Shown here: piece by piece, positions 23,868-61,751 of the stretch
Layout of the letters: every line of letters begins with the position of its first letter
Numbering within the stretch: position 1 is the first letter of the stretch
NCBI GenBank assembly: GCA_016218085.1
Contig: JACREY010000012.1
Location: 186,001-250,000 of the forward strand
From: Ignavibacteriota bacterium
GTDB taxonomy: Bacteria; Bacteroidota; Ignavibacteria; Tepidaquicellales; Tepidaquicellaceae
Length of the DNA: 64,000 nucleotides
Direction of reading: 5' to 3'
Made by a program: the position numbers and the translations under genes
Notes under the pieces: model-generated
Databases searched by the model: none
Told to the model about the DNA's origin: nothing
Seen by the model: the letters and a program-made list of their open reading frames with translations, nothing else

Positions 23868-23890
23868 CAGCCGGTTTTAATATATAGCTT

Positions 23891-23926
23891 ATTTAGGATA
23901 TAAGTATTGAATAAAATTTCCTAAAT
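23891..23926. promoter_or_regulatory. 8-bp inverted repeat ahead of the flippase-GT2 fusion gene
   Basis: ATTTAGGA and TCCTAAAT are separated by 20 bases in the 89-base gap before the fusion gene. The gap is the only sizable one in this part of the locus, so a promoter or control hairpin is possible. No -10/-35 pair is convincing. Confidence 0.28.
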
Positions 23927-23956
23927 TTATAAAATTTACAAAGATAAGCCCAAAAA

Positions 23957-27252: not shown

Positions 27253-27255
27253 TAA

Positions 27256-28209: not shown

Positions 28210-28215
28210 ATTTAT

Positions 28216-30152: not shown

Positions 30153-30155
30153 ATT

Positions 30156-44109: not shown

Positions 44110-44819
44110 AAACTTTAAGCATAATACTGCCCGTTTATAATAACCAGGATGAACTGAAAAAAAATATAGGTTATCTGACAGAATTTTTTAACCAGAAGGC
44201 AATCAGTTATGAAATAATCATTGTTGATGACTGCAGCAGTAACGCAGGCGAGATAATAGAAATTGCAGATGATTATAACTGTCTTTACATCAGGAATGAA
44301 AAGAATTCCGGCAAAGGAGAATCGGTGAAAAGGGGAATGCTGAAGGCTTCCGGAAAATACAGATTATTCACTGATGCGGATATACCTTACGAAAAGGAAG
44401 GTATTGAGCTGATGCTCGAAAAACTCGATAAAGAAAAATTTGATGTGGTAATAGGGGACAGGACACTGTTTAAATCAGAATATAAAAACGGTTCTTTTCT
44501 CCGCTCGACAGGAAGCAGGATATTTTCCCTGATTGTGCGCGAGCTTACCTCAGGAAAGTTTCCCGATACGCAGTGCGGGCTGAAAGGATTTACTGCCGAA
44601 TCTGCCGAAACATTGTTTCGCAAGACAAAAATAAAAGGTTTTGCCGTTGATGTGGAACTGCTTTATCTTGCATTGATGCATAATTATAAAATTGGCAAGG
44701 TACCGGTGAAGCTAAGGTCGCATAGTGTCAGCACCGTAAGTGTGATTAAGCATGGATTCCAGATGGTTGTTGATTTAATGAAAATAAAAATCTACAGGCT
44801 AAGAAAAAAGTATGAATAA
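44106..44819 (+). CDS. DPG/DPM-synthase-like GT2 (polyprenyl-phosphate sugar synthase)
   Basis: A 237-residue GT2 enzyme resembling dolichyl-phosphate beta-glucosyltransferase. It has LSIILPVYNNQDELKKNI, IIIVDDCSSNAGEI, the metal site FTDADIPYEKEG (DAD), VVIGDRTLFKS and FPDTQCGLKGFTAESAETLF, which is diagnostic of this subgroup. The product would be a polyprenyl-phosphate sugar used in the periplasm by GT-C enzymes. Three GT-C-like proteins are in the same operon, one of them overlapping this gene by eight bases. There is no membrane helix. Confidence 0.88.
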   Translation: MKTLSIILPVYNNQDELKKNIGYLTEFFNQKAISYEIIIVDDCSSNAGEIIEIADDYNCLYIRNEKNSGKGESVKRGMLKASGKYRLFTDADIPYEKEGIELMLEKLDKEKFDVVIGDRTLFKSEYKNGSFLRSTGSRIFSLIVRELTSGKFPDTQCGLKGFTAESAETLFRKTKIKGFAVDVELLYLALMHNYKIGKVPVKLRSHSVSTVSVIKHGFQMVVDLMKIKIYRLRKKYE

Positions 44820-46428
44820 AATTAAGTACATAAGGTATTCTATATGGCTTCTAGCTGTTTTCGCAGCAGCGTTTTCTTTCTGGGGGTATTTTAAAACAGG
44901 AGTGCTGTCGGATACATTCGGCGATGCATATACAGCAGTGAATTCCGGACTGGTTGAAAAGTTGACAAACGACCTGCAGTTTATAGATGCTAACAGGTAC
45001 AGGCCTGTATTATTCATCACCCTAAAGTCGATTGTTAGTTTCAGCAGTCTGCTTGGAATTGCTTATGATAATTTTATAATATACAAAACCGTAAATCTTC
45101 TCCTGTATCTGATTTTAGCTTTTCTCTCCGGATATTTTGTTTTAAAGATTACCGGTGATTTGATAAAATCAGTGCTGACCGAGATTTTCATTCTGCTTTA
45201 TCCTAATAACCTGCACAATCTTTTCTGGTCAGCGGCATATTTTGAAATTCTCTGTGCCGTATTCTGCATTCTGACGCTTTTGCTGGCAGTCAAGTTTATC
45301 ATGTGCAGGAGATTGAGATTTCTAGTCTATTCAAATACTTTCTTTGTGCTTGCCCTGCTTACAAAAGAAACAGCAGTCCCGCTTCCTTTTATATGCGCAG
45401 TAATTGTGTTTCTTTTTTACGGAAGAACTGTATTTGCAGGAAAAAAAATTATCTTGATTTCACAGACGGCGATTCTGACTTTGTATTTTTTTGCAAAGAC
45501 ATTATTGAGCAGGGGAATTCCTGTTATATCCGGTGAGTATTTCGGCAATGATTTTTTCGGAGTTTCCGTTCAGGTGATTTTTAAAGCATTTATTTCGCTG
45601 ATTATCCCGTTTGATTACTCTGTAATCAGGTTCAGCATAAAAGAATTTAATCCGGGTGTTACAGCATATATAATTATAATATCAATAATCTCTGTTTATT
45701 ACATCTACAGCTTTATTAAGAACGGAAAAATATCGAAGTTATTTCTCATAGTTGCGGTTTTACTATTGTCGGTATCTCCATACATTTATGCCGGTTATAT
45801 CAGGCCGCAGTTAATATTGATACCATTTACTTTCACGCTGATATCATTAATGTCATTCCTTGATTCAAAGGAAATCCTGCTGAAATATTCAGTGCTTTTA
45901 GTTCTTATTCTCTGGATTCCATCCGGATATGGTGTCCTTGACAGCTGGAAAACCGCACACAGCAAGGGAAAAGAAAGACTGGAAAGTCTGCTTAAAACGG
46001 ATTTGCCCCCAGGAAAAAAATACCTGATAATAGGAAATCCTTCGAGACTTCAACAGTCATTTATGTATGACAATATTATGTTCCCTTATAACTATTTTAA
46101 GTATCACAGTTATGTCCTTAAAGATACAATATCCGATGCAATAAGAACTGCGGCACTCGATAAAAATTCTCTCGATGCTGTTATTGACGTCAGGCAACCG
46201 GTGGATAATGAATTTGAATTAACCTGTACGGGAAAAACACAATTTTTCTACCTTGATGGAAATGAAAAATTGATAAAGGAAGAAAACGGACTGAAAAGCA
46301 AACTTTTCGAAGCGGATTATCTTGAATTCAATGATTTAGGAAAACCGGTTAAAATAAAACTGAAACTGCTGTCCGATAGTTTAATTTGTTACATTTTCAG
46401 GGGAAGCAATATTGAAAAAATGAAATGA
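44812..46428 (+). CDS. Multi-pass membrane protein, GT-C-like
   Basis: A 538-residue membrane protein with about ten helices and a soluble C-terminal domain from about 390. After helix 1 there is an acidic loop (TFGDAYTAVNSG) and a conserved-looking NRYRPVLFITLKSI. FVLALLTKETAVPLPFI resembles the motif in O-mannosyl/TPR-type GT-C membrane proteins. Use of polyprenyl-phosphate sugar made by the upstream enzyme is inferred from the overlap. The family is not certain, and transport or polymerisation roles cannot be excluded. It overlaps the next gene by four bases. Confidence 0.72.
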   Translation: MNKIKYIRYSIWLLAVFAAAFSFWGYFKTGVLSDTFGDAYTAVNSGLVEKLTNDLQFIDANRYRPVLFITLKSIVSFSSLLGIAYDNFIIYKTVNLLLYLILAFLSGYFVLKITGDLIKSVLTEIFILLYPNNLHNLFWSAAYFEILCAVFCILTLLLAVKFIMCRRLRFLVYSNTFFVLALLTKETAVPLPFICAVIVFLFYGRTVFAGKKIILISQTAILTLYFFAKTLLSRGIPVISGEYFGNDFFGVSVQVIFKAFISLIIPFDYSVIRFSIKEFNPGVTAYIIIISIISVYYIYSFIKNGKISKLFLIVAVLLLSVSPYIYAGYIRPQLILIPFTFTLISLMSFLDSKEILLKYSVLLVLILWIPSGYGVLDSWKTAHSKGKERLESLLKTDLPPGKKYLIIGNPSRLQQSFMYDNIMFPYNYFKYHSYVLKDTISDAIRTAALDKNSLDAVIDVRQPVDNEFELTCTGKTQFFYLDGNEKLIKEENGLKSKLFEADYLEFNDLGKPVKIKLKLLSDSLICYIFRGSNIEKMK

Positions 46429-47465
46429 ATATCCTTCATTTACATACGGAGCTGAATATCACCTGCGGAATATCGAAGACGATATTTCTTATTGCAAAAT
46501 ATCCGAAGGACGGCGACATGCATTATGTGCTTGCGTTCGGAGGTGATGCAGGAAAGAAATATTCGGGATCAGGAATAAATGTGGTTTTTTTAAAAAGAAG
46601 AAGAAGTTTTTTTAAAGATTTTCTTTACCTGAAAAAATTCGTTAAAAAAAATGAAATAGATATAATCCATTCCCACCACAGATACTGGGATTTTGTTGCA
46701 GACTCCGCATCCCGCTTTTTCGGAGCGAAAAGAATTACTTCCGTACAGAGCTTTGTTTACGGAAAAAAATTAATGAGTTATAAATCGCCCGTCCTGCTCG
46801 CCGCAGGGGAGTCGGTTAAAAAACATCTAGTGGATTATTTCGGGGTAAACAAGAAAAGAATAGTTGTTTTTAATAATTTTACAGACGAAAGCGAAATCAA
46901 AGCGGTAAGACAGAAGCAGGAAGTCCGCACTGAACTTGACATTCCGGATGATGCCTATGTATTCGGGTATGCAGGAAGGTTTTCAGTCAAGGAAAAAGGA
47001 ATTGATGTCCTAGCGGATGCTTTTAGAGATTTCAGCGGAAAATATTCCGGTGCAAGATTGGTAATGGCAGGAGGAGGAAGCGACATAAAAAAAATATTAA
47101 TTCCGGAAAACACTTTAATTCTCGATTCAAAGGAAAACATTTTTGATTATTATAATATATTCGATTGTTTCATTCTTCCTTCACGAGTCGATCCTTTTCC
47201 GCTTGCGTGCCTGGAAGCCGGAATGATGAAAATACCTTTTATCGGCTCGGATGTAAACGGAATACCTGAAATGATTGAAAACAATAAAGACGGGCTGCTT
47301 TTCCCGAAAGAGATCAGCCTGATGCTCTCGGAAAAAATGGAAGTATTTTATAAGGACAGAAAATTTGCAGGCGAATGCTCCCGGAGATTTTTCGATAAAG
47401 TAAAAGAAAAATATAATAGTACCAAAGCACTCGATAAACTAAACAGAATTTACAGGAATTTGTAG
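46425..47465 (+). CDS. GT4 family glycosyltransferase
   Basis: A 346-residue GT-B enzyme. The N-terminal half begins ILHLHTELNITCGISKTIFLIAKY and has IIHSHHRYWDF. The donor half has FGYAGRFSVKEKGIDVLADAF, VMAGGGSDIKK and PSRVDPFPLACLEAGMMKIPFI with the acidic pair of GT4, followed by NKDGLLFP. It acts in the cytoplasm on the lipid-linked unit. Seven bases separate it from the next gene. Confidence 0.9.
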   Translation: MNILHLHTELNITCGISKTIFLIAKYPKDGDMHYVLAFGGDAGKKYSGSGINVVFLKRRRSFFKDFLYLKKFVKKNEIDIIHSHHRYWDFVADSASRFFGAKRITSVQSFVYGKKLMSYKSPVLLAAGESVKKHLVDYFGVNKKRIVVFNNFTDESEIKAVRQKQEVRTELDIPDDAYVFGYAGRFSVKEKGIDVLADAFRDFSGKYSGARLVMAGGGSDIKKILIPENTLILDSKENIFDYYNIFDCFILPSRVDPFPLACLEAGMMKIPFIGSDVNGIPEMIENNKDGLLFPKEISLMLSEKMEVFYKDRKFAGECSRRFFDKVKEKYNSTKALDKLNRIYRNL

Positions 47466-47472
47466 GTAGCCA

Positions 47473-48981
47473 TTGAAAAAATACATTTTCATATTGCTTA
47501 TTCTTTCTGCTGCAGCGGCATTTTTTCTGCCGTTTCAGTTTCTGCTGAATTTTGCTCACGACGATTCTTTCTTTTACATAAAGACTGCAAATAATCTCTC
47601 AAAGGGATTCGGCTCGACTTTCGACGGAGTCAACATTACAAACGGATATCACCCGCTTTACTTTATATCTCTTGTCATTTTGTTTGCAGTACCGAATTTC
47701 TTAGCATCTGCATCTCCCGAATTTCTTTACAGGCTGGTGTTTCTTTATCACGAAGTACTGCTTTTGTTTTCCTTTGTTTTTCTTTTAAAATCTTTAAAAT
47801 TGGTTTTAAAGGAAAAATACGGAAGTACATTAATCCTTTTAATAATTATAATGCTTGCAGCGTTAGTATTTATCAGGGATTACGGTCTGGAAAGCCACCT
47901 TGCCTGCCTTATTATATCGTATTTCCTTTTTTTAAAAGCCAAGGAAACCGAAAACGGAAGAAGCAATCCTGTCGATAAATCAGTTTTGCTTTCTTTGCTG
48001 TTCCTGACCAGAACAGATTTTCTAATTTCCGTCATTCCCCTGGTTTTGATTGCCGACATTTTTACAGGCAAAGAAAAATTAAAGCACATAATCACATCAT
48101 TCATTTTTATTAATATTACTGCATTAATATATTATCTGACTAATTATTATTTCTTCGGTCATTTTGCAACGGTGTCCGGTATGCTTTTGAATGCGTTTCC
48201 GGTTGTGTTGCTTAAAGAAAATATCAATATTCTTATAACTGATCCGGCAAAACTTTACAACCAGTTTGCAAGAATCATTTTCTTCATGATTTCCATTATA
48301 TTGTTTACAGTATTTTATACAAGGAATAAAGCGAAAACTGAAGCTGAAAAAAAGTTTTTCGGCGTGATACTCGGTTTCGGTGCCGGCAGTTTTTTGTTCG
48401 TTCTTTACCATCTGATTTTTAATACATACAGTATTAGGGAGTGGTATATGACCGTTCCGGTATTTATTTCTTCCGTCATGGCTGCACTTATGGCCGGAGG
48501 CAGGAAAATCACCGCATATATCACCTTACTTTTATCTTTAATTGTTTTAATTTATGTGTTTACCGGGTCGAGGATTGCAAACTATAAGTATGTTTCCGGT
48601 TATGAGTACGCAAAAGCAATTGAAAAGATTGTTGGAGCGGACGAACGGGTTTACCAGGTTGATTACTGCGGTGTGACAGGATTTTTTTCGAACAGAAATA
48701 TTATAAACGGCGACGGTCTGATTAATAGTTTTGAATATTCCGGATATATGAAGAACGGGAAAATCGACGAGTATCTGAAAAAATATGATGTGAAATATTA
48801 TTCAACTTACTCGTCTGAAAGCCTGCTAAAAGATTCGGTGTACACGGATAAAACTTTTTCCGATAAAATAAACGGGAAAATCTTTATTTTTGACAAATCA
48901 TCACTCGCGCTTGAAATGCCTTTCCGATGGAGTCATATAGCATTCGGATTGGATGGGAAATGGTATCTTTTTAAATTCTGA
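47473..48981 (+). CDS. GT-C-like multi-pass membrane glycosyltransferase
   Basis: A 502-residue membrane protein with about ten helices. NFAHDDSFFYIKTANNLSKG follows helix 1 with the acidic pair D30-D31, then TNGYHPLYFISLVI, an arrangement much like that of the gene at 39424. The C-terminal 110 residues are soluble and periplasmic in orientation. A polyprenyl-phosphate-sugar-dependent transferase is the likely role. Start is TTG, the only possibility before the first helix. It overlaps the GT26 gene by 29 bases. Confidence 0.8.
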   Translation: MKKYIFILLILSAAAAFFLPFQFLLNFAHDDSFFYIKTANNLSKGFGSTFDGVNITNGYHPLYFISLVILFAVPNFLASASPEFLYRLVFLYHEVLLLFSFVFLLKSLKLVLKEKYGSTLILLIIIMLAALVFIRDYGLESHLACLIISYFLFLKAKETENGRSNPVDKSVLLSLLFLTRTDFLISVIPLVLIADIFTGKEKLKHIITSFIFINITALIYYLTNYYFFGHFATVSGMLLNAFPVVLLKENINILITDPAKLYNQFARIIFFMISIILFTVFYTRNKAKTEAEKKFFGVILGFGAGSFLFVLYHLIFNTYSIREWYMTVPVFISSVMAALMAGGRKITAYITLLLSLIVLIYVFTGSRIANYKYVSGYEYAKAIEKIVGADERVYQVDYCGVTGFFSNRNIINGDGLINSFEYSGYMKNGKIDEYLKKYDVKYYSTYSSESLLKDSVYTDKTFSDKINGKIFIFDKSSLALEMPFRWSHIAFGLDGKWYLFKF

Positions 48982-49747
48982 AAATTTATTGAACGCGACA
49001 ATAAACATATTGGGATTGGAAATATCGAATTCATCTTATGATGAAATTATAAACATTCTTTCGGAAAAAATCCGCACGAATGAAAGGTTTACTTTTCATA
49101 ATGTAAACGCGAGTATACTGCTTAAATATCTGAATAACACTGAATTCAGAAAAAGCCTGAATTCCTTTGACTGTCTTTACAGTGACGGAATTGGGATGTA
49201 TTCTGCTTCAAGATTCTTATACGGCAAAAAGGGCCTGAAACAAAGAGTAAACGGAACGGATTTGTATTACCGGATTCTCGAAAATGCAGACAATAAAAAG
49301 CTAAAATGCTTCTTTTACGGCGGCAGCGCTCAAGCTGTCGGGCTACTTCCCGGAATATTGAAAAAAAACTATCCTGGCATCACGGTAACAGGTATAATCC
49401 CAAGAAGTGATAAGACCTATGACGATACCCTGAAGCAAATCATGGATTCTTCTTCAGACATTCTTTTTGCAGGGCTTGGGACTCCTGTGCAGGAAAATTT
49501 TATTGCGCAGTATTCCGGTTCACTGAATGTCCCTGTTCAGATTGCCGTAGGAAGCGGACTGGAATTCATTTCGGGAGCAAAAAAAAGAGCCCCGGAAATT
49601 TTTCTTAAACTTGGGATTGAATGGATATACAGAATATATTTAGAGCCTTTGCGGCTGTGGAAAAGATACTTTTTTGGTATTCCTGCTTTTATATTTAAAA
49701 TTATTATTTTTAAGTTTAAATTACCTACAATTAAGGAAAATAGCTGA
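48953..49747 (+). CDS. WecG/TagA/CpsF family glycosyltransferase (GT26)
   Basis: A 264-residue GT26 enzyme. The family signature is clear: FHNVNASILLKYL, FDCLYSDGIGMYSASRFL, RVNGTDLYYRI, FYGGSAQAV, FAGLGTPVQENFI, AVGSGLEFISGAKKRAPEIF and LGIEWIYRIYLEPLRLWKRY. Members add the second sugar (ManNAc or ManNAcA) to undecaprenyl-PP-GlcNAc in ECA and teichoic acid synthesis, so it probably sets the base of the lipid-linked unit. No initiating transferase gene is in the window. The PorU-like gene starts two bases after its stop, so they share a transcript. Confidence 0.93.
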   Translation: MGNGIFLNSENLLNATINILGLEISNSSYDEIINILSEKIRTNERFTFHNVNASILLKYLNNTEFRKSLNSFDCLYSDGIGMYSASRFLYGKKGLKQRVNGTDLYYRILENADNKKLKCFFYGGSAQAVGLLPGILKKNYPGITVTGIIPRSDKTYDDTLKQIMDSSSDILFAGLGTPVQENFIAQYSGSLNVPVQIAVGSGLEFISGAKKRAPEIFLKLGIEWIYRIYLEPLRLWKRYFFGIPAFIFKIIIFKFKLPTIKENS

Positions 49748-49749
49748 AT

Positions 49750-52700
49750 ATGAGAAAATTTGTTTTCATATATCTTTTGCTTGCTTCTAACTTCTGCTTT
49801 GCGCAGAATTACAACTGGATTACTCCGAACAAAGACTATCTTAAAGTTTTTATTAACGAAGACGGATTATACAGGATAAATAAAATTGACTTTTCAAATG
49901 CCGGAGTAAACACAAGCAATATCGACCCGCGAACGGTTAAAATGTTTTATAAAGGCAGCCAGATTCCCATATATTTTGCGGGTGAAACAGACGGTGTGTT
50001 TAATGACTCTGACTATTTCGATTTCCATGCAAAAAGAAACTACGGGGGATTAACAAATACATATAAAGAACAAACCGGCCCGACCGGCAGTGTTACTGTT
50101 GTCGATTATGTTACTGATGAATATTATACGCCATATTCGGATACCAATATTTACTGGATAGGCTGGGATGGCGCATACGGACTCAGGTATGCAGATTACG
50201 GCTATACTGCGACGAACGATTTTCTTCAATCATATTTTACTGAAAGGCTGCACTTTGAAAAAGATGTTACTTACTCGATGGGCGAAACCGTTAATGATGC
50301 TAATGATTTCCGTCATTTTAATACCGAGAAAGTTTCGGGTGAAGGCTGGTACTGGAAGATGATGGAACTGCTGAATTCCGTATCGGATTCTTTTTATGTC
50401 CCGAATCTCTCCCCCGTCCCGCAAATGTGCGCACTCAAGATATTCGCTTACCCGAATTCATTTCAGTCCAGCGGACATTGCCTTGTGATTAAAATAAATT
50501 CAACAAGGCTGGACACAATTACCAGAATTAATTACAATAAATTCGATACAACTGTTTACTTCTCAAGCTCACTACTAAATTCCTCATCCGGAAATAAAAT
50601 CACAATCTCGTATACAACAAAAAATCTTCAGGGAGGATATCTGTATTTCGACTGTGCTACGCTTTTATATCCGAGAATCTTTAACCTTTCAGGAAGTATT
50701 CTCAGCTTTAAAACGGGACAGTCTGATTCTTCCGCAAAAAGATTCAGACTGAGCGGATATTCGAGCAATGAGGTGAATATATATGATATAAAAAATAATT
50801 TAAGAATTACAAATTACAATTCTTCTTCCGATACCCTCATTTTTTCGGGAAAGGGAAACGGCGAATATGAAGTTGCCAATAAATACATAACAAAGAAACC
50901 ACTGCGTCTGAAGAAAAAGCAGGTTCCGAATCTTGCATCTGCATCCAACGGAGCTGACTACCTGATCGTCTATAACAAGCTTTTCGAATCGCAGGCAGAG
51001 CAGTTAAGGTCATACCGCAGTTCTCACGATAATTTCAGAAGCATAAAAGCCGAAATCGAAGACATATACGATATTTTCAATTACGGCATCGAAAATCCCT
51101 CTGCTATCAGGAACCTCACGATGTATGCATATTCAAACTGGCAGGCACCTGCGCTGAAATATCTATGCCTTTTTGGCCGAGGCTCAATTGACCCTAAAAA
51201 GATTTACAGCAATTCGGTTTATTATCAGAATTACATACCAATATACGGCAATCCGCCTTCGGACAATTATTACGGGAATGTAATACCCGGTACATTTGTC
51301 TATTGCCCCCAGATTTCTGTCGGAAGGCTTCCTGTATATACCGCACAGGAAGCTCAGGATATTGTAAATAAAATAATTAATTATGAAACAAATGCAATTG
51401 AACCCTGGATTAAGAAATTTTCATTTATAACAGGAGGCTTTAACAGCCAGGAACAAACGCAGTTCATAGCTTCTTCCGATAACCTGATTAATTCTTATAT
51501 TCTAACGCCGCCTCTGGTTTCTTATCCGCAGAGAATTTACAGGACTGATACAACAGGACAGGTATCATACAATTTTGAAGACTCGATAAAAAATACAATC
51601 AACCGTGGAACGCTTGTCGTAAATTATATCGGGCACGCGGCTACATCTACCTGGGATAACGGTATTAAGGACCCGAATATTCTAAGCAACGGAAATAAAA
51701 ATCCTCTTGTATTCAGCATGACCTGCTTCACGGGAAAAAATGCACAGACGGATATAGACGGAAGAGGATTCGGGGAAAGGTTTGTGTATCTTCCTAATAA
51801 AGGCGCAATTGGTTTTGTCGGAACTACAGGCTGGAGCTTCTTTCCCGGTGGCGGAAATACATTAAACGGATATTTGTTTAAGAGCATAGCATACGACAGT
51901 TTAAGAAGAATCGGGGATATATTGAAGAAGGGTTCGACTTATATGAAAAATTATGATACAACTTCCTTTGCAAATAAAAACACAATCAACAGCTATAACC
52001 TCCTCGGAGACCCTGCCAGCAAACTTATACTTCCATCTTATCCTGAATTCGATATTCAACTAAGCGATTATAAGCTCACACCCGTATTTCCGTCTTTGAG
52101 GGAGCAGATTACTCTAAAGATATATCCCAAAAATCTCGGAACACGGGCAGACTCCTGCAAAATCAGGTTCCAGCTTTTGAAAAATAATGCAGTCAATAAA
52201 GTATCGGACACCGTAATCCGGAATTTTGATTTTTCTGATACGCTTACTTATTATTTTAAAATTGATTCTGCCGGGATATATAATGCTAAAATTATCCTCG
52301 ATGCAGAAAACTGGTATAACAGGGAAACCGAAACAAATAACATTCTTATTGTTCCCGTACCGCTTAAAAATATTTCCTTCGTTCCGCTGAAACCGGTTGA
52401 TAATTCCGTTGTTCCGTCTGATTCAGTAACATTTGTTGGGATAAATCCGAATATAGACCCGAAGAATTTTAACCTTAAAGTTTATATTCAGCTTGATACA
52501 AATGCAAATTTCAGCTCGCCGCTGAAGCAGACATATTTCAGGACAGTTGATTCGGGTGTAATTACAAAGTTCAGGATAAGAATTCCTGTTTCTGATACCA
52601 ACATAATATATTTCTGGCGTACAAACTCTGTTATTAACAATACAGATACATCCGGCTGGACACTTGCAAGCCGTTTTCTGTATTCTCCTTCTGTATTTTC

Positions 52701-54615
52701 GGATTCAAAACTTTCGAAAATAAATCCCGATTCAATTTGTTATATTTATAAAAAGAGTCCGTACCAGTACAGTGAGTCAGACTTAGGGAATGTAAATTTT
52801 TCGGTAGACGGATTTAAACTGAAAAACTTTACCGGTGATTTATTTGCACAGGCCTGGGGAGGAGACCCCTGGGTTGCATCTTATTTCCGCGTGAACGGAA
52901 AAGAGCTTTTCCTCCTCGACCCATCGCTTCACTGGGGCGGTCTTAATATACTGAAAGTAAGAAAAAATGACGGTGCATATGTAGAGCAAAGGCATTTCAA
53001 GTTTTCTTCCCCTTCGTCTTCTGATTCCGTGCTTAATTACCTCAATACTTTCAACAGCAATTATGTAATGATGGTTGTGAAATCATATGTTTTCGAAGGC
53101 GTTTCTGATTCCATAAGGCAGACTCTCAAAAACAGGTTCAGGGATTTCGGAAGCACAAAAATAGATTCCGTCAATCTCAGGGATTACGGAAGGTGGAGCT
53201 TTATAAGTTATCCTGCAAGCAGCGGATATAATGTCTCGGAAGTTTTCCTGGTCACGGGTAGTCCCGATGCCCCGGCAATTTCACAGATGCAGCCGCTGTT
53301 TAATTTTGACAGCGGATATATTTACCATAATCTCGGACCGGCAGCCCATTACAGGAGTTTTTCCTGGGACAGGCTAATTAATCCCAGCAGTTCTTTGTTG
53401 TTTGATGTTTTCGGAATTGATAAAGGCAGTCAGAGCAGCCTTCTTTACTCGAATATTTCTACAAACAATTATTTTTCACTCGATACATTAAAGACGTATA
53501 TTTATCCGAATATCTTACTTAAAACGAAGCTTGAGGTTGATTCGCTTGTGGGATATAATTCTCCTGTATTCAAATCGCTGAAGTTTAATTATGTACCGCC
53601 TGCCGAATTGATTTCGGATAATTACTCTTTTATAAAAAGCGACTCCGTGATGCAGGAAGGGGATACATTGAGGGTGAGTGTAAATTATTACAATGTCGGA
53701 TTTATAGGCACTTTAAGTTCGGTTAATACATGGTCGGCAAGCTCGCCTGCAGGATTGAAGGTTTTAAAAGTAGATACGCTTCATTCGTACATACCAGTGG
53801 ATGGATTAATCCGTTCTGAATTACTTATCAGTACATACGGTTTAAGAAATATTCAGAAACCCAGGGATACAGTTTATATTTACTTTGATACAAAGCTTAA
53901 ATCAGACGAAAACGAATTTTTTACATATAATAACACTGCTATCACTTCCGTAATTCTTACCGGTGATTCTCTGAAACCCATTCTGGATGTAACTTACGAC
54001 GGCGTGAAAGTTCAGACAGGCGACTATATACAGGCAAAACCGGTTATTGCCCTCAAATACCTCGACGACAGCAAGGTACAGATTCGCGATACTTCAAACA
54101 TTAAAGTTTATCTCGACACTCATTATATACCTTATTATTTAGGAAGTATAAAAAATCCTGATATCGATCTTATATATCCGTCGAACAGAAATCTGCAGGC
54201 AACAATAATATTCAAACCGTTCCTTTCTGACGGAGAGCACTATTTCATGTATGTTGCATATGATGCAGCAAATAATTATGCCGATACAGTAAGGTACCTT
54301 CTCAGCGTGAACCCGCTTATGAAAATTTTTGATTTGAATACTTATCCGAACCCGATGAAAAGCCATACCAGTTTTATTTTTAATCTTTCCGGAAGTACGG
54401 TACCGAATAAAAGCAAAATTAAGATTTATACGGTTGCAGGCAGGCTGATAAAAACAATAGATTTTACCGCAACTATCGGCTATAACCAGATTCCGTGGGA
54501 CGGCAGGGACGACGACGGGGATTACATGGCAAACGGCGTGTATCTGTATAAACTGATTATTGACGGAAATTCAGGAAAAGAAGCTTCCGTGAAAAAACTA
54601 GTAATACTGAAATAA
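49750..54615 (+). CDS. PorU-like C25 peptidase (T9SS sortase family), copy 1
   Basis: A 1621-residue protein related to PorU, the T9SS sortase. The signal peptide is 1-19 (cleavage near CFAQ). The N-terminal region 20-105 (YLKVFINEDGLYRINKIDF, DPRTVKMFYKGSQIPIYFAG, DGVFNDSDYFDFHA) matches the PorU start. The gingipain-type C25 domain is about 400-780 with catalytic H629 (NYIGHAATSTWDNG) and C659 (FSMTCFTGKN). Ig-like and beta-rich segments follow, then a C-terminal domain with YPNPMKSHTSFIFN and WDGRDDDGDYMANG (FlgD-like). PorU of P. gingivalis is about 1160 residues; this one is much longer. PorU removes cargo sorting domains and links cargo to A-LPS. It directly follows GT26. Confidence 0.88.
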   Translation: MRKFVFIYLLLASNFCFAQNYNWITPNKDYLKVFINEDGLYRINKIDFSNAGVNTSNIDPRTVKMFYKGSQIPIYFAGETDGVFNDSDYFDFHAKRNYGGLTNTYKEQTGPTGSVTVVDYVTDEYYTPYSDTNIYWIGWDGAYGLRYADYGYTATNDFLQSYFTERLHFEKDVTYSMGETVNDANDFRHFNTEKVSGEGWYWKMMELLNSVSDSFYVPNLSPVPQMCALKIFAYPNSFQSSGHCLVIKINSTRLDTITRINYNKFDTTVYFSSSLLNSSSGNKITISYTTKNLQGGYLYFDCATLLYPRIFNLSGSILSFKTGQSDSSAKRFRLSGYSSNEVNIYDIKNNLRITNYNSSSDTLIFSGKGNGEYEVANKYITKKPLRLKKKQVPNLASASNGADYLIVYNKLFESQAEQLRSYRSSHDNFRSIKAEIEDIYDIFNYGIENPSAIRNLTMYAYSNWQAPALKYLCLFGRGSIDPKKIYSNSVYYQNYIPIYGNPPSDNYYGNVIPGTFVYCPQISVGRLPVYTAQEAQDIVNKIINYETNAIEPWIKKFSFITGGFNSQEQTQFIASSDNLINSYILTPPLVSYPQRIYRTDTTGQVSYNFEDSIKNTINRGTLVVNYIGHAATSTWDNGIKDPNILSNGNKNPLVFSMTCFTGKNAQTDIDGRGFGERFVYLPNKGAIGFVGTTGWSFFPGGGNTLNGYLFKSIAYDSLRRIGDILKKGSTYMKNYDTTSFANKNTINSYNLLGDPASKLILPSYPEFDIQLSDYKLTPVFPSLREQITLKIYPKNLGTRADSCKIRFQLLKNNAVNKVSDTVIRNFDFSDTLTYYFKIDSAGIYNAKIILDAENWYNRETETNNILIVPVPLKNISFVPLKPVDNSVVPSDSVTFVGINPNIDPKNFNLKVYIQLDTNANFSSPLKQTYFRTVDSGVITKFRIRIPVSDTNIIYFWRTNSVINNTDTSGWTLASRFLYSPSVFSDSKLSKINPDSICYIYKKSPYQYSESDLGNVNFSVDGFKLKNFTGDLFAQAWGGDPWVASYFRVNGKELFLLDPSLHWGGLNILKVRKNDGAYVEQRHFKFSSPSSSDSVLNYLNTFNSNYVMMVVKSYVFEGVSDSIRQTLKNRFRDFGSTKIDSVNLRDYGRWSFISYPASSGYNVSEVFLVTGSPDAPAISQMQPLFNFDSGYIYHNLGPAAHYRSFSWDRLINPSSSLLFDVFGIDKGSQSSLLYSNISTNNYFSLDTLKTYIYPNILLKTKLEVDSLVGYNSPVFKSLKFNYVPPAELISDNYSFIKSDSVMQEGDTLRVSVNYYNVGFIGTLSSVNTWSASSPAGLKVLKVDTLHSYIPVDGLIRSELLISTYGLRNIQKPRDTVYIYFDTKLKSDENEFFTYNNTAITSVILTGDSLKPILDVTYDGVKVQTGDYIQAKPVIALKYLDDSKVQIRDTSNIKVYLDTHYIPYYLGSIKNPDIDLIYPSNRNLQATIIFKPFLSDGEHYFMYVAYDAANNYADTVRYLLSVNPLMKIFDLNTYPNPMKSHTSFIFNLSGSTVPNKSKIKIYTVAGRLIKTIDFTATIGYNQIPWDGRDDDGDYMANGVYLYKLIIDGNSGKEASVKKLVILK

Positions 54616-54685
54616 ATCGGATTACGGAGCATTTTATACCGAATCTTGATATATTAATAAACAGTTTTATCAATTATATTTGATA

Positions 54686-57600
54686 ATGAAAAAAATCTTA
54701 CTGTCTCTTGCAATTCTTGTGATTGCAAATATATCGCTTTGCCAGAGTTTTAACTGGATTACCCCTAACCAGGTTTACCTTAAAATGTATATTGCCGACG
54801 ACGGGATATTCAGAATAAATAAAATTGATTTCACAAACGCCGGGGTTAATGCAGATGTTATAGACCCCAGAACTCTCAAGATCTATTACAAAGGACTTCA
54901 GATTCCTTCTTTTGTGAATGGCGAAGCAGATGGAGTCTTTAATGATACAGATTATGTTGACTTTTACGGGAAGAAAAATTACGGAGGTTTGACTAATACA
55001 TATAACAGCAATAACGAAGTCGTATATGTAACCGATGAATATTATAATTACTATTCAGACACCAGTGCATACTGGATAGGCTGGGGAGGCGCTTTTGGAA
55101 CCCGGTATGTAAATTATTCCTATGCATCTGCGGTGCCATATCCGCAGGATTTTTTTTATAAAAAGCTTCACTTCGAAAGGGATTTGTATTATTCCTACGG
55201 TGAACAGATTAACGGTCAGGATTACAGGAATTTCAATAACGAAAAATTCCAGGGTGAAGGATGGTTCTGGCAGCAGCTATTATGGGGAAATACGATAACT
55301 CAGAATTTTACAACCCCAAATCTTTCTGCATCGCCCCAAACCTGCATAGTGAAGATTTTTGCATATCCGCAGCTTCAGAATACTTCAATGATTAATGAAC
55401 ACAGGATTGTGGTTACCTTCAACAATAACCGACTGGATACCATTAAAGCAAATCATTTCTCCAGAATAGATACAACACTTTATTTTACTTCCTCCTTTTT
55501 AAGCAGTACTACGAATCAGGCAAAAGTGAAATATGTCCCTGTTGACGCAGGTCTTGCAATGAACTTTGATATGTTCGAAGTATACTATCCGAGAAGCTTT
55601 GCATTTGACAGCAATACAATCAGCTTCACGCCAAATTCAACAGATACTGCATCGAAAATTTATAAAATTAAGGGAGTCAATACTTCCTATCCTGTAAGCA
55701 TTTACGATGTAAAGTACGGATACAGGATAACCGCATATACGTTTTCTGCCGACACTCTCATATTCACGGGAAAAGGAGACGGTGCATTTGAAGTCAATAA
55801 CAAGGTAATTACAAAAAAACCTTTAAGGATTAAGCAAAGACAGGTTCCTGCTTATGCGTCCTCCTCAAATGGCGTCGATTACCTGCTTATATATAACAAA
55901 CTTTTTACCACTCAGGCGGAGCAGCTGAGGGCATACAGGGGTTCCCACGACGGATTCAGGTCTGTTAAAGCTGAGATGGAAGATATTTATGATATATTCA
56001 ATTACGGCATGGAGCACCCCGTTGCTGTAAAAAATTTCATAAAATATATTTACGATAACTGGCAGCAGCCGAGAATATCATATATTTGCCTGCTTGGCAG
56101 GGCATCACTTGACCCGAAAAAGAACTCAAGCTCATCCGTCTATTATCAGAACCTGGTTCCTGTATACGGTAATCCTCCTTCCGACGGATATTTTGCAAAC
56201 CTGAATTTAAATACTTTTACCTATTATCACCAGATAGCAATAGGAAGACTGCCTGTTTATACTGTACAGGAAGCGCAGGACGCAGTTAATAAAATAATTT
56301 CCTATGAAAGCCAGCCGCTTGATTCCTGGATAAAGAAAACAATTTTTATTTCGGGAGGATATAACAGGAATGACCAGATGCAGTTTATGGCACAGTCAAA
56401 TACATTTTTAAATTCGTATATACTTCCGCCGCCGCTCTCTATGGGAACGACAAAAATTTATTTCAACGATTCAAGCGGTTCGGTTGTCTATAATTTTTCC
56501 GACTCGATTAAAAACACTTTGAACAGGGGAGCAGCATTTGTAAGCTACATCGGACATTCGGGAAACGGATACTGGGATTTTGCATTTGATAATCCCAATA
56601 TACTATCAAACGGCAATAAGCTTCCTTTGATTTTCAGCATGACATGCTTTACCGGAAAGAATGCGGAACCAAACGCAAGGGGATACGGAGAACTTTATGT
56701 TACAACTCCAAATAAAGGTGCAATAGGATTTATCAGCTCTACGGGATGGAGCTTCTTTCCCGGGGGCGGGAATATCTTTGAACAGCATTTTCTGAATAAG
56801 CTAAGTTCGGATACGCTCAGAAGAATCGGTGACCTTACCAGGTATGCATCTATGACAATGGCTCCCGAATCAACATACTTCACGCCGAGGAATACAATTA
56901 ACTGCTACAACCTGCAGGGCGACCCTGCCGTAAAATTTCTGATTCCAAAATATCCGGAATTTGACATACAGTTAACGGATTATTCCCTTGCCAATAATTT
57001 TCCGGCGGTTAGGGAAAATATTACTTTAAAAATTTATCCGAAAAACCTCGGTACTTATGCGGATTCATGCAAAATTAGGTTCCAACTGCTGAAGAATAAT
57101 GCAAACCACAGCATAAAAGATACTATTATCAGGTCGTGGGATTTTGTCGATACCGTCCTGTATAATTTCAAGCTGGATACTGTCGGTGTATATTCCATGA
57201 AAGTCATGCTTGATATAGACAACTGGTATACTCAGGAACTGACCACAAATAATACCATTATATTTCCTCTGAATGTGAAAAATACATCCTTTGTCCCGAT
57301 AAAGCCAATCGATAACATGGTAATCAGGAGGGATACAGTAGAGCTTGTTGGAATTAATCCGAATATAAAAACATCATCCAATACCGTAAAACTCCTTGCT
57401 CAGATTGATACAACTGCATCTTTTACTTCACCCTTGTCGCAGACATATTTCAATAACAATATGACAGGTGCGGCAACCACGTTTAAACTTAGAATTCCTG
57501 TCCTGGATTCCAATAAAGTTTACTATTGGAGGCTGAATACGGTTGTAAACAATACCGATACTGTCGGATGGTCGGAAACAAAAAGGTTTGTATATCACCC

Positions 57601-59563
57601 TTCACTGCCCGCATCATTCGCGGAAGTCCTGACGGCGAAGAATTCAAGGGACGACGATAAACCTTTGTTGCCCGGAGATTCAAATATAACAATTTATAAA
57701 AACAAGCGGGGACAATACAGCGACTTTGAATTGTCCCGTGTAAGCGGTGATAACAACGGTATGAGACTGGGAATATTTTCAGGAACTCTAATCGCGAGTT
57801 CCTGGGGAGGCGACCCGTGGGAGCCTACATACTATGCAGTTAACGAAGATGCAATGTCGCTTACCCGCTCAGGTGTTGACTGGAACGGGATTTATCTTAT
57901 CAAGGTAAGTAAACTGAGCGGAAGAATTCTCAGCACAAATCATATTTATCTTTCTACTGCATCCTCGTCGGATTCAGTCCTTTCGTATCTTAATACTTTC
58001 GATTCCACAAATATTCTGATGGCGCTTAAGCTGATATCAACAGGATTTGCCTCTTATAACCTGAATGCAAATACGAAAAACAAATTCAGGCAGATGGGCA
58101 GCACTAAGATTGACACTCTTGATTTTACGAACTGGAACTGGGACAGGTGGAGCTTTATCAGCTATCCTAATTCACCGGCTCCGATAGTATCGGAGGGATT
58201 CGGAAATACAAGCTGGGTGCCTACCGTAAGCTCCCTGCAGCCTGTGTTTACATATGCAAACGGCGAGATCAGCAGGACCTTCGGCCCTGCAAAAACCTGG
58301 AAAAATTTCTCCTGGCAGCAGAATGTTTATTCCGGTTCGAATATAAAATTTGATGTATACGGAATAAACCAGTTTAACGTGGAAACGCTTCTGATGTCTG
58401 ATATTACTTCAAGTTCATTTACAGACCTGCAGTCGGTAAACTCATTTACCTACCCGAACCTCAGGTTTGTCGGTAAACTGAGCATAGATACTCTGACAGG
58501 ATTCAGGTCTCCGCTTTTCAGGTCTTTCAAACTGAATTATGTTGCTCCTTCTGAAATTGCTCTCGATTATAATACATTTATAAAATCAGACTCTTTACTG
58601 AATGCAGGCGACAGCCTTGGAGTAAGCCTTTCGTATTATAATGTCGGATACGTCAACCTCTACGGCTATACGAGGGAAATTTATACATATAATAATAACG
58701 ACCAGAAAGTAGTGCTGAAAACTGAAACCAACTCAGGAATCCTGAAAATCGACAGCGCTGATTTTATCAAGACTTATGTCAGATTGAACGGTCTCCCGAA
58801 TATAAAGAAATATAATAACTATATAGTCCTCTTTGCCGGAGCCACCCCTCTTGGCAGCCAGAATGATTTATACACATATAATAATATCAACACTGCAAAT
58901 ATTGTCGTTAAAGGAACGGCACAGATTACAAGCCTGGAAATGCTTTCCGACGGAACTAAAATCAGCGGCGGAGAATTTGTAAGGTCGAAACCGGATATGG
59001 AAATCAGACTGAAAGATAAAATGTATTCAGGCACAGGCTCATTCGATACTGCAGATTTCAGGCTCCTGATTAATAATATTTACCAGCCTTATTATTCCAG
59101 AACAACAGGCGGCATAACGGTTGAAGGTAGCAGTGAAAAATCGGGAATATCTCTGAAATTCAGCCCTAATCTTCCAAACGGTGAAAATTTATTCAAGTTG
59201 CTTGCAAGGAATAAATCAGGAGAAGGTTTTGATACCATTAATTACAGCGTTTTTGTCTCTACTCAGCTGTTGATAAAGGATTTTTACAACTTCCCAAATC
59301 CGATGAAAAACCATACGGGATTTATTTTTAATCTTGGAGGCAGCAATCCTCCATCGGGATGCAGGATAAAGATTTACACGGTATCCGGACGGCTCGTAAA
59401 AAATATTACAGCTACTGCCAACATTGGCTATAACCAGATTAACTGGGACGGGCGCGACAACGAAGGTGATTATATGGCAAACGGAGTTTATTTCTACAGG
59501 ATGACAATAGAGGGCGACACGAAAATTGAATCGCCTGTTCAGAAACTTGTGATACTGAAATAA
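54686..59563 (+). CDS. PorU-like C25 peptidase (T9SS sortase family), copy 2
   Basis: A 1625-residue tandem paralogue of the preceding gene with the same domain order. The signal peptide ends near SLCQ; FNWITPNQVYLKMYIADDGIFRINKIDF begins the mature part. C25 catalytic H624 (SYIGHSGNGYWDF) and C654 (FSMTCFTGKN) keep the 30-residue spacing of copy 1. The C-terminal domain has FPNPMKNHTGFIFNLGG and NWDGRDNEGDYMANG. A TTG six bases upstream is in frame, but the ATG starting MKKILLSL is better. Only 70 bases and no terminator separate it from copy 1, so co-transcription is likely. Both copies retain the catalytic pair, so neither looks dead. Confidence 0.88.
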   Translation: MKKILLSLAILVIANISLCQSFNWITPNQVYLKMYIADDGIFRINKIDFTNAGVNADVIDPRTLKIYYKGLQIPSFVNGEADGVFNDTDYVDFYGKKNYGGLTNTYNSNNEVVYVTDEYYNYYSDTSAYWIGWGGAFGTRYVNYSYASAVPYPQDFFYKKLHFERDLYYSYGEQINGQDYRNFNNEKFQGEGWFWQQLLWGNTITQNFTTPNLSASPQTCIVKIFAYPQLQNTSMINEHRIVVTFNNNRLDTIKANHFSRIDTTLYFTSSFLSSTTNQAKVKYVPVDAGLAMNFDMFEVYYPRSFAFDSNTISFTPNSTDTASKIYKIKGVNTSYPVSIYDVKYGYRITAYTFSADTLIFTGKGDGAFEVNNKVITKKPLRIKQRQVPAYASSSNGVDYLLIYNKLFTTQAEQLRAYRGSHDGFRSVKAEMEDIYDIFNYGMEHPVAVKNFIKYIYDNWQQPRISYICLLGRASLDPKKNSSSSVYYQNLVPVYGNPPSDGYFANLNLNTFTYYHQIAIGRLPVYTVQEAQDAVNKIISYESQPLDSWIKKTIFISGGYNRNDQMQFMAQSNTFLNSYILPPPLSMGTTKIYFNDSSGSVVYNFSDSIKNTLNRGAAFVSYIGHSGNGYWDFAFDNPNILSNGNKLPLIFSMTCFTGKNAEPNARGYGELYVTTPNKGAIGFISSTGWSFFPGGGNIFEQHFLNKLSSDTLRRIGDLTRYASMTMAPESTYFTPRNTINCYNLQGDPAVKFLIPKYPEFDIQLTDYSLANNFPAVRENITLKIYPKNLGTYADSCKIRFQLLKNNANHSIKDTIIRSWDFVDTVLYNFKLDTVGVYSMKVMLDIDNWYTQELTTNNTIIFPLNVKNTSFVPIKPIDNMVIRRDTVELVGINPNIKTSSNTVKLLAQIDTTASFTSPLSQTYFNNNMTGAATTFKLRIPVLDSNKVYYWRLNTVVNNTDTVGWSETKRFVYHPSLPASFAEVLTAKNSRDDDKPLLPGDSNITIYKNKRGQYSDFELSRVSGDNNGMRLGIFSGTLIASSWGGDPWEPTYYAVNEDAMSLTRSGVDWNGIYLIKVSKLSGRILSTNHIYLSTASSSDSVLSYLNTFDSTNILMALKLISTGFASYNLNANTKNKFRQMGSTKIDTLDFTNWNWDRWSFISYPNSPAPIVSEGFGNTSWVPTVSSLQPVFTYANGEISRTFGPAKTWKNFSWQQNVYSGSNIKFDVYGINQFNVETLLMSDITSSSFTDLQSVNSFTYPNLRFVGKLSIDTLTGFRSPLFRSFKLNYVAPSEIALDYNTFIKSDSLLNAGDSLGVSLSYYNVGYVNLYGYTREIYTYNNNDQKVVLKTETNSGILKIDSADFIKTYVRLNGLPNIKKYNNYIVLFAGATPLGSQNDLYTYNNINTANIVVKGTAQITSLEMLSDGTKISGGEFVRSKPDMEIRLKDKMYSGTGSFDTADFRLLINNIYQPYYSRTTGGITVEGSSEKSGISLKFSPNLPNGENLFKLLARNKSGEGFDTINYSVFVSTQLLIKDFYNFPNPMKNHTGFIFNLGGSNPPSGCRIKIYTVSGRLVKNITATANIGYNQINWDGRDNEGDYMANGVYFYRMTIEGDTKIESPVQKLVILK

Positions 59564-59614: not shown

Positions 59615-59690
59615 CCGGATATTTTGTTTTATTAGATTCTTTATTGAGGGGAAGAATTGGATGGTCTTTTTTTAATTAAACAAATTGACC

Positions 59691-61751
59691 ATGAAAACAA
59701 AAATACTCGCTTTAATTTCTGTTGTATTTTTATTTTATTCTGCAAATTCACTGAATGCCCAGTGGATACAGTGCCATAACGGATTTTACGGTGCGCTTAT
59801 AGGCGGATTCGAATCAAATGGCGGAAACTTACGAGTTTCAACCCAGAATGCAGGAATTTACCTTTCTACAAATGAAGGGTATAACTGGTTTCAGACAAAT
59901 TACGGTCTGACTAACCTTAATGTCTTTGCCTTGATTTCCAACAGCAATTATGTTTTTGCCGGGACTCACAGTAGCGGCGTTTACCGCTCTTCGAACAACG
60001 GTGCAAACTGGTCAAGCGCTTCGAGCGGCATTTCAAATCTCGGAATTAATGCTCTGGCTGTATACGGGAGTACAGTTTATTGCGGCTCAACGAACGGACT
60101 TTACACTTCAACAAATAACGGTACGAACTGGATTTCAGCCGGAGGCGAGCTTGCAAGCAAGCCGGTAATGACTATTCTTTTTTCAGGTTCAAATATGCTT
60201 GTCGGAACAAACGGTTTCGGATTTTATTTTAACGGAACGCAGTCGAATAGCGGTTTGACAGATTTGAATGTTAGCTGCCTGGCAGTTTCGGGTTCAGGTA
60301 TCTTTGCAGGTACATTCAACGGTTTGTTTTATTCGGGAAATAACGGCGCAAGCTGGACTGCTGTTAATTCCGGAATTACGAATCCGAACATAACATCACT
60401 TCTTGCATATAACAATAAAATTTTTACGTCAACATACAGCGACGGTATTTATTATTCAACTGACACGGGCATCAGCTGGATTCCCTGCAGCGACGGGATA
60501 ACTAATATGTCCATTACAAACCTGCACCTTAGAGGAACAAATATTTTCTGCGGAACTGCTGGCGCAGGTGTATTCCGCTCAATTGATGAAGGGGCAAGCT
60601 GGACTGAGTTTAATGAAGGAATTATCAGTCAGAATGTATATGCATTCACAACATATAACAGTAAGCTATTTGCAGGTACGTCAGGAAAAAATATATTTGT
60701 AACCACAAACAGCGGTCTGAACTGGAATGTTACGGGTTACGGTGTTGCAAATCCGAATATTATGTCGCTAATGAATAACGAGAGTTACTTGTTTGCCGGT
60801 ACGTGGGGCGGCATTTACCGCAGCTCAAACGGAGGCGATAACTGGAGCTCCGTTAATTCAGGCCTGACATATCATGATGTCAGGGGGCTCGCTTTTGTAA
60901 ATAGGAATTCGGTGATTTATAACTTTGCAGGTACAAATGGAGGAATATTCCGTTCGACTAATAACGGAAGCAACTGGTCTGTTATTCAATATGCACAGTA
61001 TGTTTGGGATTTTACTATAAAGGATTCAAATATATTTGCCGGTACCCTTTACGGAATATACCATAGCCCGGATTTTGGCAGCAACTGGTCACTTGCAATT
61101 CAAAATCTGTCTAATGTAGATGTCAGAACAATGGCTTCCAACAGCATCTATGTCTTTGCAGGAACAAACGGAGCGGGAGTCTTCAGAAGCCCGGACTACG
61201 GCGCTAACTGGTATCAGGTTTCCTCCGGTATGGGAAACAGGGCAGTATCCGATTTACTGTGTATCGGTGATACTATTATTGCCGCTACTTTTTATTACGG
61301 AGTCTACTTGTCCACCAATAACGGAACAAACTGGCAGACAAGAAATAACGGCCTGCTCAATCTTAATATGAGAAGTCTTTATCTCAGCAATGGCTATGTA
61401 TTTGCAGGATCATACGGGGGTGGAATATTCAGAATACCGCTTAATTATATTATAAACGGTATTCCGGAAATGGTTCAGAATATCCCGCACGAATTTTTAT
61501 TATTTGGCAATTATCCGAATCCATTCAATCCCGTTACACAAATTAAATATTACGTTGCGGGAAGCAGTCATGTGAATCTTGAAATATATGATGTTCTCGG
61601 CAACAGGGTAACGGTTCTGGTTTCAGGTATTAAGGATGCTGGAATGCATGCTGCTGAATGGAATGCGGCGAACTATTCAAGTGGGATTTATTTCTGCAGG
61701 TTGAAGTCGAGCAGCTTTACAAAGACCATCAGAATGGTTTTGATGAAGTGA
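59691..61751 (+). CDS. Secreted repeat propeller protein with T9SS sorting domain
   Basis: A 686-residue exported protein. The signal peptide ends near NSLNAQ (about residue 23). Residues 30-590 hold about a dozen repeats of roughly 40-45 residues of the form VFAGT..GVYRS-NNGANW...GI-N (for example FAGTHSSGVYRSSNNGANW, FAGTNGAGVFRSPDYGANW), a BNR/YCF48-type propeller. The sorting domain has FGNYPNPFNPVTQIKYY and ends IRMVLMK. A TTG six bases upstream is in frame; the ATG giving MKTKILAL is chosen. The repeats are so alike that recent internal duplication is likely. Follows the PorU-like genes; likely a surface-displayed adhesin or binder. Confidence 0.92.
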   Translation: MKTKILALISVVFLFYSANSLNAQWIQCHNGFYGALIGGFESNGGNLRVSTQNAGIYLSTNEGYNWFQTNYGLTNLNVFALISNSNYVFAGTHSSGVYRSSNNGANWSSASSGISNLGINALAVYGSTVYCGSTNGLYTSTNNGTNWISAGGELASKPVMTILFSGSNMLVGTNGFGFYFNGTQSNSGLTDLNVSCLAVSGSGIFAGTFNGLFYSGNNGASWTAVNSGITNPNITSLLAYNNKIFTSTYSDGIYYSTDTGISWIPCSDGITNMSITNLHLRGTNIFCGTAGAGVFRSIDEGASWTEFNEGIISQNVYAFTTYNSKLFAGTSGKNIFVTTNSGLNWNVTGYGVANPNIMSLMNNESYLFAGTWGGIYRSSNGGDNWSSVNSGLTYHDVRGLAFVNRNSVIYNFAGTNGGIFRSTNNGSNWSVIQYAQYVWDFTIKDSNIFAGTLYGIYHSPDFGSNWSLAIQNLSNVDVRTMASNSIYVFAGTNGAGVFRSPDYGANWYQVSSGMGNRAVSDLLCIGDTIIAATFYYGVYLSTNNGTNWQTRNNGLLNLNMRSLYLSNGYVFAGSYGGGIFRIPLNYIINGIPEMVQNIPHEFLLFGNYPNPFNPVTQIKYYVAGSSHVNLEIYDVLGNRVTVLVSGIKDAGMHAAEWNAANYSSGIYFCRLKSSSFTKTIRMVLMK

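Follow-up and report, generated by a model that had tools for sequence, protein, structure and literature searches.

At the 3' end of a flippase/GT4/GT2/GT9 glycosyltransferase (GT) operon of an Ignavibacteriota bacterium (class Ignavibacteria, order Tepidaquicellales), two large proteins of family C25, here called PorU2-like sortases A and B, are encoded in tandem directly behind a glycosyltransferase of family GT26. The locus is part of a 64,000-nucleotide stretch of contig JACREY010000012.1 (assembly GCA_016218085.1, positions 186,001 to 250,000, forward strand), hereafter the window. Nearly all relatives share the pairing of GT26 with PorU2, and this suggests that these enzymes join secreted proteins to that particular sugar. 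The reading that we favour, with somewhat better than even confidence, is that of a dedicated surface-display module, a glycan together with its PorU2 sortase, which exists beside the housekeeping sortase PorU of the type IX secretion system (T9SS).

Results

The contents of the window were read from open reading frames (ORFs) and from Pfam and NCBIfam profile searches; the genome comprises 22 contigs and is 98% complete. The GT26 gene of the WecG/TagA/CpsF family (48953..49747, plus strand; PF03808, 147 bits with a cut-off of 27.4, 5.1e-43; TIGR00696, 115 bits with a cut-off of 69) stops 2 bp before the ATG of sortase A (C25-1; 49750..54615, plus strand, 1621 aa; PF01364, 4.5e-70), which is followed by sortase B of the same architecture (C25-2; 54680..59563, plus strand, 1627 aa; PF01364, 4.5e-66) after 64 bp, or after 70 bp from the likelier start at ATG 54686. 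The ORFs lie exactly where an initial annotation of the locus had placed them, which had also seen no terminator between the two C25 genes, and indeed a sequence scan of the GT26/C25-1 and C25-1/C25-2 junctions found no terminator-like site at either. Promoter-like matches were about as frequent as chance would give (51 against an expected 48.7), with one of them overlapping the start of C25-2. The octamer TATATTTG at 54675-54682 resembles the Bacteroidota -7 box, and C25-2 may have a separate promoter. Judged from this arrangement, the GT26 and PorU2 genes would share a transcript, as the initial annotation had proposed.

PorU2 and GT26 genes were searched in all 44 genomes of the order and the two lists joined by coordinates, the genomes not being independent of each other. 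PorU2-type genes occur in 42 of them; G003 and G034, whose PorU2 genes are at the ends of contigs or on short ones, were left out of the adjacency count. In all 40 assessable genomes GT26 is located upstream of PorU2 on the same strand, and in 39 it is the immediate neighbour, a single ORF intervening in G039; at the mapped loci the gap measures between -11 and +163 bp. Both genomes devoid of PorU2, G016 (77% complete) and G037 (99% complete), equally lack GT26, although both congeners of G037 carry the two genes. As there are just 57 GT26 matches in the 44 genomes, about 1.3 per genome, chance is excluded as a cause of an adjacency in 39 of 40 genomes. Outside of the order, 20 genomes of the class from seven families (f10, f12, f13, f17, f21, f22 and f23) have a GT26 gene no more than 2.5 kb away from PorU2, sometimes in divergent orientation or separated from it by one gene, and the pairing is also present in named relatives known as metagenome-assembled genomes. 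The conserved GT26-C25 adjacency looked for on the basis of the initial annotation is thereby established in the order and in much of the class.

That the adjacency is historical, with an exchangeable glycosyltransferase cassette ending beside a fixed PorU2 gene while glycan and sortase are functionally unlinked, we regard as very improbable. The set of glycosyltransferases ahead of GT26 does vary by genus, the GT26 sequence diverges fast (in a tree attempt with just five PorU2-unlinked sequences), the clusters of the class are framed by fixed flanks with TPR/DUF4292/M23 genes upstream and a gene of approximately 450 aa downstream, and families f3, f11 and f7 possess PorU2 without an adjoining GT26. 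On the other hand, GT26 stays the constant neighbour of PorU2 while other genes are exchanged, G037 misses both genes at once, and PorU2 is found beside a different glycosyltransferase cluster in other genera and in candidate division KSB1.

In genera g6, g7, g8, g10 and g14, extra PorU2 tandem pairs terminate such another cluster, which is GT2-rich and without GT26 (loci L068, L071, L073, L076, L085, L090 and L093), and in KSB1 a PorU2 gene resides amid GT2, GT4 and flippase genes (L240). A glycosyltransferase, flippase or methyltransferase gene lies within 1.5 kb of PorU2 at 40 of 68 loci of the order, 16 of 22 of the class, 15 of 27 of distant named relatives and 7 of 22 of the phylum sample, as compared to none of 31 canonical PorU loci, a control consisting of 1.5-kb flanks mostly from other taxa than the PorU2 set. 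All eight loci of the sister family f2 whose downstream side could be assessed have a T9SS cargo gene that begins between -4 and +10 bp from the stop codon of PorU2, with its C-terminal domain (CTD) intact wherever the end of the stretch does not cut the gene. A dedicated acceptor family comprising this gene and the small cargo gene at 34615 of the window was considered and dropped, the alignment reflecting mainly Fn3/CTD similarity. The favoured reading could be extended to several parallel surface-display channels in one cell, in which each PorU2 paralogue, with a glycan-presenting module fused into the enzyme, would have a lipid-linked glycan cluster (that with GT26, or the separate GT2 cluster of other genera) and cargo of its own, in addition to the housekeeping PorU, a generalization that we hold to be rather unlikely.

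The genome encodes seven C25 proteins. Canonical PorU is found on contig C21 (870 bits with NF033707, cut-off 420), next to porV (286 bits, cut-off 250), so that the window pair does not represent the organism's own PorU. The two proteins of the window score 335 and 322 bits with the PorU model, under its cut-off, and have as their best NCBIfam match NF052324, 'putative type IX secretion system sortase PorU2', which is spanned over all 879 positions with 355 and 374 bits, under a cut-off of 450 that no genome of the order or class sample reaches. In a tree of 101 C25 sequences, with the Shimodaira-Hasegawa-like approximate likelihood ratio test (SH-aLRT) as support and 95 taken as the mark, 31 PorU sequences form a single clade (99) with the window pair outside. 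The pair is separated together with 65 PorU2-type sequences (67 in total), among them PorU2 proteins above the NF052324 cut-off, by a branch with a support of 82, under the mark, so that the exact rooting of the PorU2 side is provisional. Each window copy pairs with one tandem copy of the sole congener (supports 100 and 99), so that the duplication predates the genus. With regard to length, PorU2-type proteins have approximately 1600-2000 aa and most PorU proteins approximately 1300-1400 aa, and both window proteins end in a T9SS type A CTD (TIGR04183, 29.9 and 32.1 bits, cut-off 23). None of the six PorV-family proteins of the genome is encoded inside the window, the nearest match being at C3:122057, and the gene before sortase A is GT26 and not PorV2. 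By sequence, the window pair belongs to the PorU2 clade, the sister of PorU.

Gingipain-type secreted peptidases were ruled out as closest kin of the pair, as the remaining four C25 proteins that the genome encodes (L009 and L010) score far below it, matching the PorU and PorU2 models weakly and mostly at the CTD. Those four are located close together in pairs at C3:474243-485280 and C14:2991-11104. Among the Bacteroidota of the phylum sample, G177 (L144/L189) and G241 (L141/L187) carry a PorU2 far above the cut-off without a PorU at E<=1e-100; in these two, PorU2 may have replaced PorU.

Sortase A consists of a signal peptide, a PorU-type N-terminal domain, the C25 domain (residues 404-759), Ig/CARDB-like domains, a FAM3/ILEI-like domain (approximately 1064-1154) and the T9SS CTD. 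Its Cys659 is conserved in 58 of 58 and its His629 in 57 of 58 relatives, and the dyad is invariant in 45 PorU2 proteins sampled phylum-wide. In one PorU2 copy (L204:9166-11460) the catalytic His is replaced by Lys (GK versus GH); this copy is either a dead paralogue or the product of a sequencing error. The residues around the cysteine read MTCFTG in PorU2, ACVTG and NCETG in the genome's non-PorU C25 proteins and ASCDLL in PorU. An AlphaFold (AF2) model of residues 22-790 of the first copy (predicted local distance difference test, pLDDT, 91.6) retrieved PorU 6za2 as the top PDB match in Foldseek (1.6e-31, TMq 0.56 over 833 columns), with gingipains ranking lower. Of the term 'PorU-like sortases' in the initial annotation, the likeness is borne out by dyad and fold, while identity with PorU itself has to be abandoned. 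The placement outside the PorU clade is, by the letter, the phylogenetic outcome which that annotation had named as refuting its idea, yet the idea is refined by it rather than killed, since PorU2 and PorU are sister groups and PorU2 has retained both the catalytic dyad and the fold of PorU.

The FAM3-like domain matches the Pfam family ILEI (PF15711) with 32.8 bits in copy A (cut-off 27) and 23.1 bits in copy B, and an ILEI match is present in 21 of 26 PorU2 proteins across the phylum. Profile matches extend to FAM3B (2.4e-21) and the stem domain of POMGnT1 (9.4e-21), and a model of the domain (pLDDT 89.2) aligns in Foldseek with the crystal structure of the POMGnT1 stem, 5ggj (TMt 0.76-0.78). 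The POMGnT1 stem binds N-acetylglucosamine (GlcNAc) via Arg129, Asp179 and Arg207 (PMC9802357). The equivalents of Arg129 and Asp179 are lost in this order and that of Arg207 is unsure, while these contacts are partly kept in distant PorU2; the ligand of the domain in the order, if any, should therefore differ, and GlcNAc binding through the POMGnT1 residues is unsupported here. Fold and phylum-wide occurrence of this domain, along with a Wzi-type capsule assembly protein adjoining the operon in one genus (L064), would also suit a PorU2 that is mainly a glycan-binding surface organiser, tethering the capsule or polysaccharide of the operon by its FAM3-like domain and using C25 for self-processing or assembly. 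With a nearly invariant catalytic dyad and most of the known sugar-contact residues missing in the order, we deem such a role quite improbable.

The operon of which the PorU2 pair forms the 3' end starts at 37513, and from there up to GT26 its genes overlap or are separated by a few bases, all on the plus strand. A Wzx-type flippase (37513..38751; PF01943, 2e-11; MatE, 1.2e-8) is the first gene, followed by an S-adenosylmethionine methyltransferase (38753..39427; PF13489, 7.3e-7), whose second-gene position is kept across the order, and by a membrane protein to which Pfam assigns no family (39424..40923), with homologues in the same place in other genera. Then come a GT4 (40927..42033; PF00534, 1.1e-23) and a GT2 enzyme (42035..43000; PF00535, 1.3e-32), a GT9 enzyme of the heptosyltransferase family (42997..44109; PF01075, 6.2e-15; TIGR02195 and TIGR02193 under cut-off) and a GT2 of the dolichyl/undecaprenyl-phosphate sugar synthase type (DPM/AglJ-like; 44106..44819; PF00535, 5.7e-24; best NCBIfam match AglJ, 63.8 bits, under cut-off). 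The late part holds a membrane protein without a Pfam match (44812..46428), gene 'GTCb', which is kept in many relatives, a second GT4 (46425..47465; PF00534, 7.2e-25) and another membrane protein without a Pfam match (47473..48981), which overlaps GT26 by 29 bp. Flippase, GT9, GT4 and GT2 of the initial annotation are recovered by Pfam; the label 'GT-C-like' which it had given to the three membrane proteins found no confirmation, as they lack a Pfam match.

Downstream of sortase B, two genes code for T9SS type A cargo, in agreement with the initial annotation: a protein with sortilin/BNR repeats (59685..61751, plus strand; PF15902 and PF18962), 121 bp behind the sortase gene, and, 157 bp further, one with YCF48-like BNR repeats (61909..63606, plus strand; PF14870 and PF18962). 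Divergent from the operon, a protein with an O-antigen ligase/polymerase-like (Wzy_C) domain and C-terminal TPRs is encoded (35528..37396, minus strand; PF04932, 1.5e-20), a position seen again in several relatives of family f1, and this protein is a candidate ligase for the transfer of the glycan to lipid A-core. A small T9SS type A cargo gene (34615..35547, minus strand; PF18962, 1.4e-12; TIGR04183, 44.7 bits) overlaps it. Upstream and on the same strand as the operon, the window contains a second, GT2-rich glycan cluster (23025-33173; at least six GT2 and one GT4), preceded by genes for a biotin carboxylase, a biotin-carrier protein and a PrsW protease.

Two flanking gene sets were seen in relatives. 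The gene of approximately 450 aa behind PorU2, seen at many loci of the class (L163:691-2034, with equivalents in L165-L168, L243, L245, L246 and L263), is a candidate for a further partner; Pfam gave no match for the single one of these genes that was searched. Upstream of the flippase of the GT26-PorU2 cluster, genus g4 has the Wzi-type protein together with a GFO/IDH/MocA oxidoreductase (L064:13435-19999), a possible sugar-modification set.

Discussion

With genes for the SprA translocon (924 bits), PorU, PorV and LpxC, the genome codes for a T9SS and the organism probably synthesizes lipid A. In a display module as favoured here, the GT26 enzyme together with the GT2, GT4 and GT9 enzymes would assemble a lipid-linked glycan, WecG/TagA-type GT26 enzymes usually adding the second sugar to a polyprenyl-pyrophosphate-linked primer. 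The flippase would turn the lipid-linked glycan outward and the divergently encoded Wzy_C-type ligase probably attaches it to a lipid anchor, for example lipid A-core. Both PorU2 proteins would exit via Sec and the T9SS and remain at the surface, where Cys659 and His629 may cut the sorting domain off T9SS cargo and join the new C-terminus to an amine on the glycan of the operon. The FAM3/POMGnT1-stem-like domain might hold the glycan during this reaction, replacing the separate PorZ of Porphyromonas gingivalis, while the housekeeping PorU would serve other cargo or another glycan. In P. gingivalis, PorU removes the CTD and hands the cargo to anionic lipopolysaccharide (LPS; A-LPS), which PorZ binds and delivers to PorU (PMC8545088). 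Wbp/Vim enzymes produce the linking sugar, an amino-acylated diamino-uronic acid (PMC7468200), which is attached to O-LPS through a pentasaccharide linker (PMC13086638).

Several findings weigh against this module, among them the PorU2 genes of f3, f11 and f7 and the lost sugar contacts mentioned above. The main gap is that none of the loci tested showed recognisable genes of the Wbp/Vim/WbpS type (PMC7468200), by which an amino-acylated linking sugar would be made, and the Wbp/Vim pathway was sought at the window locus and not found there; FemAB-like and AsnB-like genes are present in other clusters of the genome, under curated cut-offs. Some PorU2 copies of the order are orphans, and before the flippase, relatives of the class or of family f2 have TPR/DUF4292/M23 or ABC transporter genes. 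PorU2 of other Bacteroidota rarely has glycan genes alongside: in L179 it is preceded by PorV2 (L179 11341-12513; NF052325, 563 bits, cut-off 325) and at other loci, including L180, L182, L188 and L189, a gene of PorV2 length is located directly before it, whereas PorU2 of Ignavibacteria is without an adjacent PorV2 partner.

This pairing with PorV2 outside of Ignavibacteria and the lack of recognised linking-sugar genes at the locus would also fit a PorU2 that is a surface peptidase without glycan transfer, which acts on certain T9SS cargo or takes part in the maturation of other surface proteins, and whose place in the operon reflects a common cell-surface programme. C25 is, after all, a peptidase family, and the cysteine context of PorU2 is nearer to that of the non-PorU C25 proteins than to that of PorU. 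We nevertheless consider a mere peptidase unlikely, as PorU2 is sister to PorU, a known transpeptidase, and not to gingipain-type C25, as a loosely shared programme poorly explains the GT26 adjacency and co-absence, and as PorU2 appears again at the end of a second type of glycosyltransferase cluster.

To our knowledge, PorU is the only T9SS sortase whose reaction has been established, and its glycan has been worked out in detail in just a handful of species. A literature search, with most subscription journals outside its coverage, found no paper on PorU2, which is a database name, nor a description of the coupling to a GT26 operon in Ignavibacteria, of the fused FAM3-like domain or of the repeated link to glycan clusters. 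The PorU2-glycan operon, and in the sister family f2 the adjoining cargo gene, makes the function of PorU2 directly testable. Surface anchoring in Bacteroidota-like phyla, as these loci suggest, involves several sortase-glycan pairs rather than one; parallel channels, if true, would be the T9SS equivalent of the several classes of sortase found in Gram-positive bacteria.

Among known systems, the POMGnT1 stem and FAM3 (ILEI) share fold and sequence profile with the additional domain of PorU2, differing in the GlcNAc contacts, which are mostly not kept in the order. A sortase, a specific surface glycan and a glycan-presenting protein module are combined likewise in the A-LPS/PorZ/PorU system of P. 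gingivalis, where, however, PorZ is a separate protein and the pathway of the linking sugar, not recognised here, is known. The glycan genes of P. gingivalis presumably do not adjoin porU. A sortase-type enzyme encoded alongside glycan genes is also characteristic of the exosortase/PEP-CTERM and rhombosortase loci (PMC7468200), but those are inner-membrane enzymes of other folds, neither C25 proteins nor part of a T9SS. The putative PorU2 of the databases (NF052324, with PorV2, NF052325) resembles the window pair in its side of the tree, length class and domains, although the pair scores under the cut-off of 450 and is coupled to a GT26 glycan operon instead of PorV2 as in L179. P. gingivalis PorU itself (NF033707; 6za2) has the same order of N-terminal domain, C25 and CTD, the catalytic Cys and His and the best-matching structure, and by analogy the same chemistry, cleavage of the CTD and transfer of the cargo to a glycan amine (PMC8545088; PMC7468200), would be expected for PorU2. 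The window pair is set apart from it by scores under the 420 cut-off, by its position outside the PorU clade, by the extra FAM3-like domain and by a gene location within a glycan operon rather than beside porV.

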